Of a stretch of DNA of 64,000 nucleotides, positions 53,379-61,556 are shown piece by piece. The notes under the pieces are model-generated. The model saw nothing but the letters and a program-made list of their open reading frames with translations. It ran no database searches and was not told the DNA's origin. The stretch is from assembly GCF_000023705.1 (NCBI RefSeq), contig NC_012968.1, positions 2,108,001-2,172,000 of the forward strand. Reading direction: 5' to 3'. The DNA comes from Methylotenera mobilis JLW8 (GTDB lineage: Bacteria > Pseudomonadota > Gammaproteobacteria > Burkholderiales > Methylophilaceae). Position 1 is the first letter of the stretch. The number at the start of each line of letters is the position of its first letter. Made by a program: the position numbers and the translations under genes.

Positions 53379-55128
53379 TTAAAAGCCTTCATAGAGCTTT
53401 TGGTAATGCGCAGCATATTGCTGCAAAATAAGGTGGCGTTTAATTTTTAAAGTAGGTGTCAGCAGGCCATTCTCTACAGTCCACGGCAACGGCAACAACG
53501 CGACCCGCCTCACTTTTGCATAGCCAGGAAAAGACTTCATCTGCGCCGCTATACGCACAAGGGCAAAAGCACGCGCCTCACGGCACTCCAACACCACCGG
53601 CCAATCACTAGGCAAACCATGCTTTTGCGCCAGCTCCAGCCACCCATCCTGATTCACCACCGCTAACAACCCTAAATACGGCTTACCCTCACCTACCAAC
53701 ATCACCTGCTCAAACAAAGGGTCTGTCAGTATTGCGGCCAGTATAATCAATGCTGGCGACATCCCCGGTTTTTAGCCAGCCATCAGCGGTAAATATGGCT
53801 TCGTTTGCATCTACATTATTCCAGTAACCCTGCATCACACTAGGGCCCCGCACTTCTAAGCCGCCGGATACATCCAAACGCACCTGTACGCGGGGCAAAG
53901 CATGCCCTACGCTGCTAGGTACATTATCTTCCGCCTTATTGACGCTAATCACCGGGCTAGTTTCCGTTAGGCCATAACCCTGCACAATGGGCACACCCAA
54001 GCCGATAAAAGTACGCGCACTATCGGCTGACAATGCCGCACCACCTGCCACCGCCAAACGCAAACGGCCGCCTAAACGTGCCTGCAATTTATTAGCCACC
54101 AGGCACTTTAAGATGGGCCAACACAAATGCAGCCATTGCCACTTTGCCCGCCCTTGCGCGTAGTCAAAACGGCTATATCCAATTTTCACTGCCAGCGCAA
54201 ACAGGCGCGACGCATAGGCCGGCCCAGCCTCCAACTTATTACGTAACGCCAACTGAATCCGTTCAAAGATACGCGGCACGGTGACGATAATAGTGGGGCG
54301 CACTTTAAGCAAATCGTCCTGCAACTGCTGCACCGAGCGCGCAAACGCGACGCTGGCGCCAGACATCATGGGCAAACAGTAACCAGCCATCCGCTCCAGC
54401 GCATGCGACAACGGCAGGAAAGAGAGAAACACGTCATGTGGGTAAACGGCAAAGTAGCTTAACGAATCCCAAGCATTACACATCAAGTTACGATGTGTGA
54501 GCATCACCCCCTTGGGTTTGCCAGTAGTGCCTGACGTGTAAATAATGGTCGCCAGTGCATCGGCGTCTGCCACGCGATGCTGCAACTCACCCTGCACATC
54601 AGCAGGCGGCAGCCATGCATCCAGCCCGCGCATACAAGCATCATCTTCACCCGCAGGCAATGGCTGACAACTCACCACACGCTGTAAATGCTTAAAATCT
54701 ACACCCAGCGCATGAACCGCCTGCCAATCGCCGACACTATTCACCAGTAATAATTTTGCGCCTGAATCCTGCAGCACATGCGCAATATTTTCAGCACGGT
54801 CTGACACATAAAGCGGCACGGTGACCAAACCCAACCCCAAGGCAGCCTGGTCAAACGCGACCCAACTGGGGCAGTTCTTGAGCATAATGGCAACGCGGTC
54901 ACCAACTGCCAAATGCTCAGCCAGCAAAGCCTGTTGCCAGCGCACTACCTGCTGCATGATGGACAACCATGTCATCTCGCGCCACTCACCCAACCCCTCA
55001 TCAAAGTAGCGATAAGCGACACACTGCGACGAGCGCCTGACACGCTCATGAAACAACCCATCTAGCGTGACGACAGCCTCAGGCGAGATGTAATCAACAA
55101 CATTTTGTCTTAACACTTTGGTTAGCAC
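53379..55128 (-). pseudogene. Broken long-chain acyl-CoA synthetase
   Basis: Two overlapping frames give one AMP-binding enzyme. The first (55128 to 53710, 472 aa) has the ATP loop IIYTSGTTGKPKGVMLTHRN and GYGLTETSPVIS, then GWLKTGDVASIDYTGR, after which it runs out of frame and stops. The second (from ~53740 to 53379) resumes with AILTDPLFEQVMLVGEGKPY and the C-terminal domain. Roughly 25 residues that should lie between, holding the GR-K-E hinge motif, are missing and the frame is shifted. GGCCGC at the junction (53734-53739) suggests a deletion between short repeats. Start is GTG, without a clear ribosome binding site. The product is unlikely to be active. Confidence 0.82.
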
Positions 55129-57703: not shown

Positions 57704-57758
57704 TTAATTTGTATTATTTACAATTTTAATTTACATTAATGTAAATAATACAAATTAA
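57704..57758 (+). promoter_or_regulatory. Large palindromic operator upstream of HTH-argA
   Basis: Two perfect 18-bp arms (57704-57721 and 57741-57758, TTAATTTGTATTATTTAC and its complement) flank a 19-bp spacer. Inside, ATTTACATTAATGTAAAT (57729-57746) is itself an 18-bp perfect palindrome. The result is three ATTTAC half-sites at 57716, 57729 and, inverted, 57741. It lies 39-93 bp before the argA start, where a promoter should be. It is a likely binding site for the XRE domain encoded by the next gene. Confidence 0.75.
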
Positions 57759-57796
57759 CACTACCAAGCAACCAACCAGAAAACTAAGGCTAAATC

Positions 57797-59398
57797 ATGT
57801 CTCTTGGTCACAGCATACGGACTCAACGCAAATCACTGCACTTAACACTGCAGCAACTCGCCTCTAAAATTGATGCAGATGCAGGCAATTTGTCACGTAT
57901 TGAGCGCGGTGAATTAGGCGTTTCCGAGTCGCTACTACGCAAAATTGCATCTGCATTGGAGACAACACCGGCCAACCTTTATGCTGATAGCGATGACGCA
58001 ACACCAAACAATAAATCGGGTGAGCAAGCGCACACTTACACCAAAAGCCAATCAGAGCAAACCAACAGCACCAATGCCAAAGATTTTGTGCAGTGGTTCC
58101 GTTCTGCCACACCTTATATCCACGCTTTTGGTGGGCGCACGTTTGTGATTGCATTTGGCGGCGAAGTAGTAAGCGAGCAGCAATTCATCGCACTCTCGCA
58201 CGACTTAAATCTGCTAGCTAGCTTAGAAGTACGCTTGGTATTAGTACACGGCTCGCGGCCACAAATTGAGCAACGCTTAAAGCGCGATAACATCTCTCCA
58301 CTGTTCCATAACGGCTTGCGAGTCACCGATGATGCCGCGATGGAGGCAGTAAAGGAAGCCAATGGTGCCATCCGCGTAGAAATTGAAGCCTTGCTTTCAA
58401 TGGGGATTGCCAACTCCCCCATGGCCGGCGCCGACATCCGCGTAGCTAGTGGTAACTTTGTCACCGCCAAGCCGCTAGGCGTGCACGATGGTGTAGATTT
58501 GCAACACACCGGCGAAGTGCGCAAAGTCGATGCGATCAGCATCCAAAAACGGCTAGATGACAATGAGATGGTATTACTGTCTCCACTAGGCTATTCGCCA
58601 ACCGGCGAGGCTTTCAACCTAAGCTTAGAAGATGTTGCTGTGAGCACTGCAGTGGCATTAGATGCAGACAAGCTTATTTTCCTGATGGACTCAGAAGGCG
58701 TACACAACCTGCGCGGCGAGCTATTGCGTGAGATGACCGCAGAAAAAGCCAAGAATCTACTCAAAAATGTGAGAGAAACCGAACAAGCCATCAATATTTC
58801 GGAAGACGTCACTTACTACCTACCAGCAGCCGTGCGCGCCTGTGAGCATGGCGTGGCTAGGACGCACTTAATTAGCCGGCATATCGACGGCGCCATCATT
58901 CAAGAACTGTTCACACTGGACGGCATTGGCACCATGGTGACAGAACTGAGCCTGGAAAGCATGCGCCAAGCTAACATTGATGATGTGGGCGGCATTTTAA
59001 AGCTGATAGAACCATTGGAAAACGATGGCATTTTGGTCAGGCGTGGTCGTGAACGGTTAGAAATGGAAATTAATCATTTTCATGTGATGGAGCATGACAA
59101 CCGCATCATCGGCTGCGCAGCACTCTACCCGTTTGAATCAGAACAGACCGCTGAGTTTGCATGCCTAGCCATCGACCCGGCATACCGTGGCGGCGGGCGT
59201 GGTGATAAGTTATTCTATTACTGCGCCAACGTAGCCAAACAGCGTGGCCTTAAAAGCTTGTTCTGCCTCACAACGCGTACCGAGCATTGGTTTTTAGAGC
59301 GTGGCTTTACCGAACAAGGGGTAGAAAAACTGCCGGCAGAGAAACAAAAACTTTACAATTATCAGCGTAAATCTAAGGTGTTTAGGAAAACATTGTAA
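57797..59398 (+). CDS. argA: N-acetylglutamate synthase fused to XRE-type HTH domain
   Basis: 533 aa, ~90 longer than usual ArgA. Residues ~5-62 are an XRE helix-turn-helix (LTLQQLASKIDADAGNLSRI is the recognition unit). A Gln/Asn/Ser linker follows at ~65-92. Residues ~93-385 match the ArgA amino-acid-kinase domain, which binds arginine for feedback inhibition (GGRTFVIAFGGEVV; LVHGSRPQIEQRL). Residues ~390-533 are the GNAT acetyltransferase domain (AIDPAYRGGGRGDKLF). No internal start lies between HTH and enzyme, so the fusion is real in this sequence. A large palindrome upstream suggests autoregulation, perhaps arginine-responsive. AAGG precedes the ATG. The 3' end is duplicated at 60548. 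Confidence 0.92.
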   Translation: MSLGHSIRTQRKSLHLTLQQLASKIDADAGNLSRIERGELGVSESLLRKIASALETTPANLYADSDDATPNNKSGEQAHTYTKSQSEQTNSTNAKDFVQWFRSATPYIHAFGGRTFVIAFGGEVVSEQQFIALSHDLNLLASLEVRLVLVHGSRPQIEQRLKRDNISPLFHNGLRVTDDAAMEAVKEANGAIRVEIEALLSMGIANSPMAGADIRVASGNFVTAKPLGVHDGVDLQHTGEVRKVDAISIQKRLDDNEMVLLSPLGYSPTGEAFNLSLEDVAVSTAVALDADKLIFLMDSEGVHNLRGELLREMTAEKAKNLLKNVRETEQAINISEDVTYYLPAAVRACEHGVARTHLISRHIDGAIIQELFTLDGIGTMVTELSLESMRQANIDDVGGILKLIEPLENDGILVRRGRERLEMEINHFHVMEHDNRIIGCAALYPFESEQTAEFACLAIDPAYRGGGRGDKLFYYCANVAKQRGLKSLFCLTTRTEHWFLERGFTEQGVEKLPAEKQKLYNYQRKSKVFRKTL

Positions 59399-59455: not shown

Positions 59456-59494
59456 TCACTGAATCAATATACTCAGACGCTGTTGATTCAGTGA
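59456..59494 (+). promoter_or_regulatory. 11-bp inverted repeat upstream of unknown gene
   Basis: TCACTGAATCA (59456-59466) and TGATTCAGTGA (59484-59494) are perfect complements separated by 17 nt, ending 23 bp before the ATG at 59518. It could be an operator or an mRNA hairpin. Confidence 0.5.
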
Positions 59495-59517
59495 ATATTA
59501 TTTTCAGGGGTAAACAT

Positions 59518-60474
59518 ATGAAAATGACTTTTTTGCTTAAAGGCATTATAGCCATCAGCATACTGGCAGTTGGCCTCTTATTCATTGATTTGGAAAAGTT
59601 AAAGCAAAAAAGAGAACTGATGACCAAGTCTGTTGTTACAGCACCACCAGCCAAAACAGATATTAATAAACCTGTAGAAGAAGAAAAGGCATTTGCATCA
59701 ATAGAGATTAATTGCCCAGCGCAACTTCCGGATTTAGAGAAGCTATACAAAAGCACCCCGCGGACAAAGATACGATGGGATGCAAAAACCATAGACATAG
59801 TACAAGGCTATACCTATTGGTTAGACAAAGGCGTTTTAGAAGAAAAGTCAGGCAAACCTATAGGTAGCCACACACCCATCAACGCACTTAACACCACCTT
59901 GTACGCAGCCTTCAACTTTCCCAGCTTGCGTGGTGAAGAAGATAAAAACTTTATAACCGACCGAAGAGAGTATAGGCGTGAGCACAAGGTTGACAAAAAG
60001 GTGATGCATTTAATTCCAGAAACAAGAATTGGCATCTCGATTAACTACGTGCCTGATTGGAGTAGATTGCCAATGACGCAGGAAATTAAATTTTGGAAGA
60101 GAAGCTATAGAGCCAATTTAACAGCACAACAAAAAGCTCAAGCACGTAAGGAACATGAAATTTGGCTTGATAAAAACCAGCCAATTAATTATGTCGGTGA
60201 TTCTGAGAAATTTGGTTTACGTGAAATTATTGCTAGGAGAACAGGCATGTTCTATTACGAACCAATTAATAACTCCAATCCAAGTCCTTACGGGCTGTCA
60301 CGCTTTGCGTGTGCTGGTGCCACTAACCCAGTAAGCGCTTGCATAGGGCATATTAAATTGGATAACGAATATCTGGTCACTTATTCGCTTCCACAGCAAT
60401 GGATGCCTTGTTGGAAACAAGTAGAAGAAGGCGTGAAGCGCGTAGTTCGCTTAAATACACAAGTCGCAAAATAG
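59518..60474 (+). CDS. Unknown membrane-anchored periplasmic protein
   Basis: A 318-aa protein with one N-terminal helix (FLLKGIIAISILAVGLLFID), a Pro/Lys/Glu-rich spacer, and a periplasmic domain of ~250 residues. The domain has an Arg/Lys-rich middle (RREYRREHKVDKK; WKRSYRANLTAQQKAQARK). Three or four Cys in the C-terminal part (FACAGATNPVSACIGH; WMPCW) could form disulfides. I do not recognise it. I prefer the ATG at 59518 because AGGGG precedes it; a GTG at 59491 is also in frame. It sits between argA and argB, flanked by copies of the argA 3' end, and is lower in GC than its neighbours, consistent with insertion. An immunity or surface role is possible but unsupported. Confidence 0.75.
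   Translation: MKMTFLLKGIIAISILAVGLLFIDLEKLKQKRELMTKSVVTAPPAKTDINKPVEEEKAFASIEINCPAQLPDLEKLYKSTPRTKIRWDAKTIDIVQGYTYWLDKGVLEEKSGKPIGSHTPINALNTTLYAAFNFPSLRGEEDKNFITDRREYRREHKVDKKVMHLIPETRIGISINYVPDWSRLPMTQEIKFWKRSYRANLTAQQKAQARKEHEIWLDKNQPINYVGDSEKFGLREIIARRTGMFYYEPINNSNPSPYGLSRFACAGATNPVSACIGHIKLDNEYLVTYSLPQQWMPCWKQVEEGVKRVVRLNTQVAK

Positions 60475-60656: not shown

Positions 60657-61556
<900 letters not shown>

Follow-up and report, generated by a model that had tools for sequence, protein, structure and literature searches.

NadR, which combines an NMN adenylyltransferase with a repressor, is a biosynthetic enzyme with an N-terminal helix-turn-helix (HTH) that represses its own pathway, and PutA and BirA are bifunctional enzyme-repressors in which a ligand sets the DNA-binding state. 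The available text of PMC3602430 describes BzdR as an XRE domain, a linker and an enzyme-derived domain with its enzyme activity lost, and a man-made chimera, Q1, joining an XRE domain to shikimate kinase and showing both enzyme and repressor activities. ArgA, or N-acetylglutamate synthase (NAGS), is the first enzyme of arginine synthesis. In NAGS, arginine binds where the kinase domain ends, next to the N-terminal helix, and it moves this helix and reshapes the hexamer of the Neisseria gonorrhoeae enzyme (available text of PMC4490483); mutations in the arginine site abolish the arginine effect (available text of PMC2566978). Fusions of NAGS to ArgC in Haliangium and of H-NAGS with ArgH are also described in the available text of PMC4490483, the words “fusion” and “DNA” being absent from its main text. 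According to the available text of PMC5343134, many gammaproteobacterial groups have kept the repressor ArgR, which is absent in other classes. No description of an HTH-ArgA fusion was found in the literature searched, which covered few subscription papers.

The window analysed here, a DNA stretch of 64,000 nt, carries such a fusion, and its features (window coordinates) are as follows.
57797-59398, + strand: xre-argA fusion gene, 533 aa, with Pfam and NCBIfam matches.
57803-57994, + strand: XRE helix-turn-helix domain, residues 3-66, five helices, with the nearly invariant recognition helix GNLSRIERG.
57995-58075, + strand: linker, disordered and variable, residues 67-93; residues 63-96 are free of in-frame ATG, GTG or TTG in the window gene.
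58076-58129, + strand: ArgA N-helix, residues 94-111, from the structure model; its counterpart moves with arginine in N. gonorrhoeae NAGS (available text of PMC4490483).
58139-58876, + strand: amino-acid-kinase domain, residues 115-360, with the predicted arginine-binding site and with K292 at the aligned position of the key lysine in N. gonorrhoeae NAGS.
58904-58933, + strand: arginine-site motif ELFTLDGIGT, residues 370-379, with E370 as the key glutamate; motif from the available text of PMC4490483.
59066-59314, + strand: GNAT acetyltransferase domain, residues 424-506; its CoA motif, RGGGRG, lies at 464-469.

The initial annotation had described an unbroken frame running from an XRE domain through a linker into a complete ArgA, and had proposed a domain-architecture search; the observation is now confirmed, since the translated frame is open from ATG to stop without a break and all domains score above cut-off within its 533 aa. 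Pfam analysis of this single protein gave HTH_31 at residues 3-59 (31.6 bits, cut-off 27), HTH_3 at residues 7-59 (30.1 bits, cut-off 23), AA_kinase at 115-360 and Acetyltransf_1/7 within 424-506. The NCBIfam model PRK05279 (ArgA) spans residues 91-533 with 703.1 bits against a cut-off of 344, and the ArgA equivalog TIGR01890 scored 586.9 bits against 202.85. The protein also carries the arginine-site pattern E-(L/I)-(F/M)-(T/S)-x-x-G-x-G-T together with the key lysine and glutamate, and the CoA motif (R/Q)-x-x-G-x-(G/A), both as defined in the available text of PMC4490483. From the equivalog models and these two motifs, the window protein is assigned as a classical ArgA and predicted NAGS; it is the sole ArgA found in its genome (a single contig of 2,547,570 bases), the other match being ArgB at 60672-61556.

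In the structure model of the fusion protein, the HTH is folded, with helices at residues 3-13, 18-24, 29-36, 44-53 and 58-66, and the linker is loose. By this five-helix fold and the Pfam cut-offs, the N-terminal part is an XRE (Cro/CI-type) HTH. The model lies at 3.2 Å from the arginine-bound structure 3d2p and at 12.0 Å from the native structure 2r8v, values that hold little functional information.

Conservation was examined over 78 aligned rows, in which the mean frequency of the top residue was 26% for the linker, 69% for the HTH and 81% for the kinase domain, which places the HTH below the kinase in conservation. Within the HTH, the longest stretch that hardly varies is the recognition helix (N31 98%, L32 100%, S33 100%, R34 93%, I35 98%, E36 100%), and the linker varies in both sequence and length. 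The arginine-site residues K292, E370, F372, T373, G376, G378 and T379 are invariant in 26 rows. We computed dN/dS over 12 pairs, several of whose dS values are saturated; finite values came from 10 pairs for the HTH (0.02-0.11), from 11 for the linker (0-0.80) and from 11 for ArgA (0.007-0.042). In-frame ATG, GTG or TTG codons occur in the linker in 32 of the 78 rows and are absent from 46, the window included; because of these codons and of shifted frames in two relatives (G181, G056), a separate ArgA product is possible in some relatives.

Upstream of the gene, the DNA at 57704-57758, named in the initial annotation as a candidate binding region, proved to be a perfect inverted repeat, its 19-nt arms separated by 17 nt. 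A search for perfect repeats with arms of at least 15 nt and spacers of 3-40 nt returned five nested counts in the 64-kb window, the number that this one repeat yields, and 0 in each of five base shuffles. The perfect repeat itself is not conserved, the best inverted repeat in many relatives being no better than in shuffles. Conserved instead, ahead of fused argA, is a pair of 17-bp near-palindromes (TTTGY-N7-RCAAA) at a distance of about 30 bp, which defines the following promoter features in the window.
57708-57724, + strand: operator 1, TTTGTATTATTTACAAT, predicted, over the likely -35.
57738-57754, + strand: operator 2, AATGTAAATAATACAAA, predicted, over the expected transcription start.
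57709-57714, + strand: likely -35, TTGTAT, three of six positions to consensus, from column counts of relatives.
57732-57737, + strand: likely -10, TACATT, 17 bp from the -35, in a column block TATAWT across relatives.
57786-57789, + strand: likely ribosome-binding AAGG, from the sequence.

A double site scoring at least 15 of 20 was present at 61 of the 67 fused loci outside the streamlined genus g2, compared with 7.0% of dinucleotide shuffles, the fused counts being partly by construction because the motif was derived from the same promoters, which is not so for the controls; the remaining six loci fell below threshold, and L091 was left out of the promoter scoring. None of 13 unfused argA promoters reached 15. 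Similarly, among promoters of other genes at the same loci (target set of 68 loci, including the fragment L083), 6/324 reached 15 and 2/324 reached 17, both of which belong to genes other than argA; in the AT-rich subset, 1/58 reached 15, the argA promoters themselves being 71% AT. The double site also reached at least 15 in 79 of the 80 loci of an HTH-alignment scan (described below), a set that is not independent of the 67.

The spacing between the two sites shows a clear peak at 30. Between them lies a -10-like block (T 41, A 41 and T 38 of 45 aligned pairs, three of which are g2 pairs resembling chance), and since this conserved block stands 17 bp behind TTGYAT, operator 1 is placed over the -35 and operator 2 over the start. 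The proposed argA promoter was absent from a consensus promoter scan, and its -35 is weak. In g2, the 30-bp pair is unsupported, with 4 of 12 loci at 15 or above versus 5.3% of shuffles; of the pairs seen in g2, two look like chance. Two variant arrangements were also observed: at four of 11 g2 loci (L078, L079, L080, L082) the sites lie 42 bp apart, or about four helical turns, and at L048 and L070 argA is preceded by three operator-like sites, spaced at about 30 bp.

We favour, at a probability of roughly 65%, the reading that the predicted NAGS is its own transcriptional repressor, acting as one hexamer on two operators, with arginine probably as co-repressor. Self-repression of argA is probable given a double site conserved, of the genes examined, at fused ones only, together with the conserved recognition helix and arginine site. 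Computation thus supports the earlier proposal that the enzyme represses its own gene: the double site lies over fused argA promoters and is absent from the unfused ones examined.

We infer from sequence the DNA binding, the repression, the spanning of both operators by one hexamer and the sign of the arginine effect, in the following manner. The ArgA part would probably be hexameric, like N. gonorrhoeae NAGS, and such a hexamer would carry six HTH heads on flexible linkers just before the N-helix. Heads of one hexamer would bind both palindromic operators, about three helical turns apart, and their occupancy over the -35 and the transcription start would block RNA polymerase. Arginine, bound between the N-helix and the kinase domain, would shift the helix and probably reposition the heads so as to favour DNA binding. 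Control of DNA binding by arginine is plausible, and arginine most likely tunes binding because the HTH linker precedes the N-helix and the arginine-site features are present; the loose linker may also transmit nothing. For the fullest form of the proposal, in which catalysis, allosteric arginine inhibition and arginine-dependent self-repression reside in one polypeptide and one hexamer bridges two operators spaced by whole helical turns, we see even odds.

The alternative that survives best retains autorepression and makes DNA binding independent of arginine, the HTH holding the ArgA level steady and arginine acting on the enzyme alone. A disordered linker, variable in sequence and length, would be a poor relay for a conformational change, and a strong double site at argA only is what a homeostatic loop would have; however, the HTH sits directly before the N-helix, which arginine moves in N. 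gonorrhoeae NAGS (available text of PMC4490483), and a search for PF01316 ArgR, the only repressor model used, gave 0 matches in the genome of the window and none in 100 genomes of the order. We judge this alternative unlikely, though deserving of serious attention.

The reach of the predicted arginine-responsive repressor looks narrow, covering argA and, in many relatives, the adjoining argB, and not the whole pathway. A double-site profile run against 15 genomes gave its best and only strong match at argA in 15/15, most of these matches being at argA by construction because 12 of the genomes had supplied profile sequences, the exceptions being G172, G173 and G067. Away from argA, the best match was partial, at the start of metW (E 0.006), and weak matches spanning both sites began at E 0.17, with L262 and L263 outside called frames; weak targets may be missed because in each genome 150 of the 889-1760 candidates were scored. 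Scanned for single sites, the window's own genome yielded 19 places, two of which are the argA pair, against 10 in the reversed control; of the 17 non-argA places, 15 were read, with 13 inside called frames and two intergenic. With most non-argA places inside called frames and 19 places against 10, a wider regulon was rejected. The two intergenic places, L110 and L116 (1501-1517), each show a single operator-like site in an intergenic stretch that precedes a frame.

Besides the argA pair, this genome has just one close pair of sites, which falls at the metX/metW junction (L104, 2429032-2429090) and is taken as a coding coincidence because the site encodes a conserved stretch at the MetW start. 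Operator-like palindromes recur at this junction in several Methylotenera (L249-L256, L260), inside the metW start. Downstream of the fusion gene lies the following.
60672-61556, + strand: argB; an orphan ORF separates it from argA, which it follows closely in many relatives.

We observed argB within the DNA covered at 62 of 79 loci, always downstream on the same strand, and within 240 nt in 52 of the 62, so that argA-argB is a likely target unit there. The orphan frame between argA and argB in the window (59491-60474, 327 aa) has no Pfam match, and the argA-argB gap is too short for it in 52/62 relatives' loci. ArgJ is present, and ArgA may on that account have a topping-up role. Elsewhere in the window, on the - strand, the coding sequence of an AMP-binding enzyme is divided between two overlapping frames (53379-55128).

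XRE-like folds can serve other roles. With HTH-operator binding being a prediction, the operators might belong to another regulator, the HTH serving as a dimerisation or contact domain. This is quite improbable: the double site marks 61/67 fused argA promoters and 0/13 unfused ones, its strong form stands at the very gene that encodes the HTH, and the longest nearly invariant run of that HTH is the recognition helix.

It is also conceivable that the inverted repeat acts as RNA, in a leader attenuator or riboswitch, because a perfect 19-nt repeat could fold into a hairpin in a transcript that holds both arms. The conserved -10-like block lies between the arms, however, so that the first arm should not be transcribed, and the two arms, at their fixed spacing, are near-palindromes themselves. 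The sole Rfam match in the region scored 14.1 bits where the gathering score is 120, a chance match; with no match at the gathering score, an RNA leader was rejected as a candidate, and we regard this explanation as very improbable.

Whether the fusion is common in the family was left unanswered by the initial annotation, and the comparison with related genomes that it suggested now answers this: the same domain order recurs across the family and is not a one-genome error. A match to the fusion protein was present in 180 of 187 family genomes, the seven without one being incomplete genomes. Among the matches listed (150 rows from 149 family genomes), 147/149 genomes match from residues 1-3, with partial or two-piece rows in G153, G162, G140, G048 and G092; in the remaining two (G181, G056), the HTH is present and the frame shifted. 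G181 (L265) has the HTH and the ArgA part in different frames and G056 (L266) a frame change near residue 183, for both of which assembly error and real loss are possible. In g2, the alignment begins at residues 1-7 in all 12 re-searched genomes, one of which has a fragment.

An HTH-alignment scan of a collection of 84,980 species found ArgA in the same frame in 80/80 loci (the best 80 of 136 relatives), which overlap with the family genomes counted separately. The records were named Methylotenera, Methylovorus, Methylobacillus, Candidatus Methylopumilus or Methylophilaceae, some bearing only “proteobacterium” or the like; one labelled Sulfuritalea (L188) has a protein start resembling that of L022 of the genus Methylotenera. 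A joining of two genes by assembly or gene calling, for which the shifted frames in two relatives are the only indication, has a negligible probability given the fusion in 147/149 listed family genomes and in all 80 scan loci.

The search for the fusion beyond the family covered samples of the order and the class. In the order sample of 200 genomes (195 matched), 144 non-family rows were among the 150 matches listed, none starting before residue 29, and the six family rows all started at 1. The five earliest-starting non-family rows of the 144 began at 29 (with an internal stop), 54, 66, 66 and 70; four of these loci showed no HTH by profile, the fifth being G295. In the class sample of 274 genomes (214 matched), a start at 1 was seen among the matches listed only in the window's own genome, the lowest starts outside the family being 56, 59 and 60, with internal stops in two. 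Furthermore, an HTH profile detected no separate HTH gene beside unfused argA within about 1.5-3 kb on each side at 22 loci of 21 genomes. In a quick ArgA tree with some long branches, including the g2 rows, and with 15 further unfused loci dropped by a motif filter, 35 fused and 16 unfused rows were split by one branch (SH-aLRT 99), which needs one change. The fusion is a family trait, of Methylophilaceae by most of the named records, a family of bacteria that use methanol and methylamine.

Compared with known systems, the fusion protein shares with classical ArgA (PRK05279/TIGR01890; 2r8v, 3d2p) the kinase and GNAT domains and the arginine-site and CoA motifs, and differs in having an N-terminal XRE domain and linker, which the unfused relatives listed from the order and class lack. 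Combining a predicted enzyme with a predicted DNA-binding domain, it belongs by sequence with bifunctional enzyme-repressors of the NadR, PutA and BirA kind. NadR has the same design of enzyme and N-terminal HTH with another enzyme, pathway and effector, and its repression extends to several genes, in contrast to the strong double site seen here, which stands at argA only. PutA and BirA also unite catalysis and DNA binding in one protein, but are other enzymes and do not concern arginine, and the DNA-binding domain of PutA has a different fold from XRE. The conserved double site over the predicted argA promoter is new here. If the favoured reading is true, a feedback site that also drives repression of its own gene would constitute a compact new enzyme-repressor design.

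ArgR would act alike, as an arginine-responsive, probably hexameric arg repressor; PF01316, however, is not among the Pfam matches of the fusion protein. If the favoured reading is true, it would offer a lineage lacking PF01316 ArgR a way to regulate its arginine synthesis. In the NAGS-ArgC and H-NAGS/ArgH fusions, the partners are enzymes and not DNA-binding domains (available text of PMC4490483). The window protein scored 29.1 bits on the anaerobic benzoate regulator model PRK08154, below its cut-off of 204. The XRE-linker-enzyme layout resembles that of BzdR and Q1 as described in the available text of PMC3602430, with the difference that the fusion protein is natural and has intact enzyme motifs. 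It would thus be a natural case of an enzyme between catalysis and regulation, the step rebuilt in the laboratory in that work, and, if the favoured reading is true, the counterpart in nature, across a whole family, of the enzyme-regulator chimera made in the laboratory.
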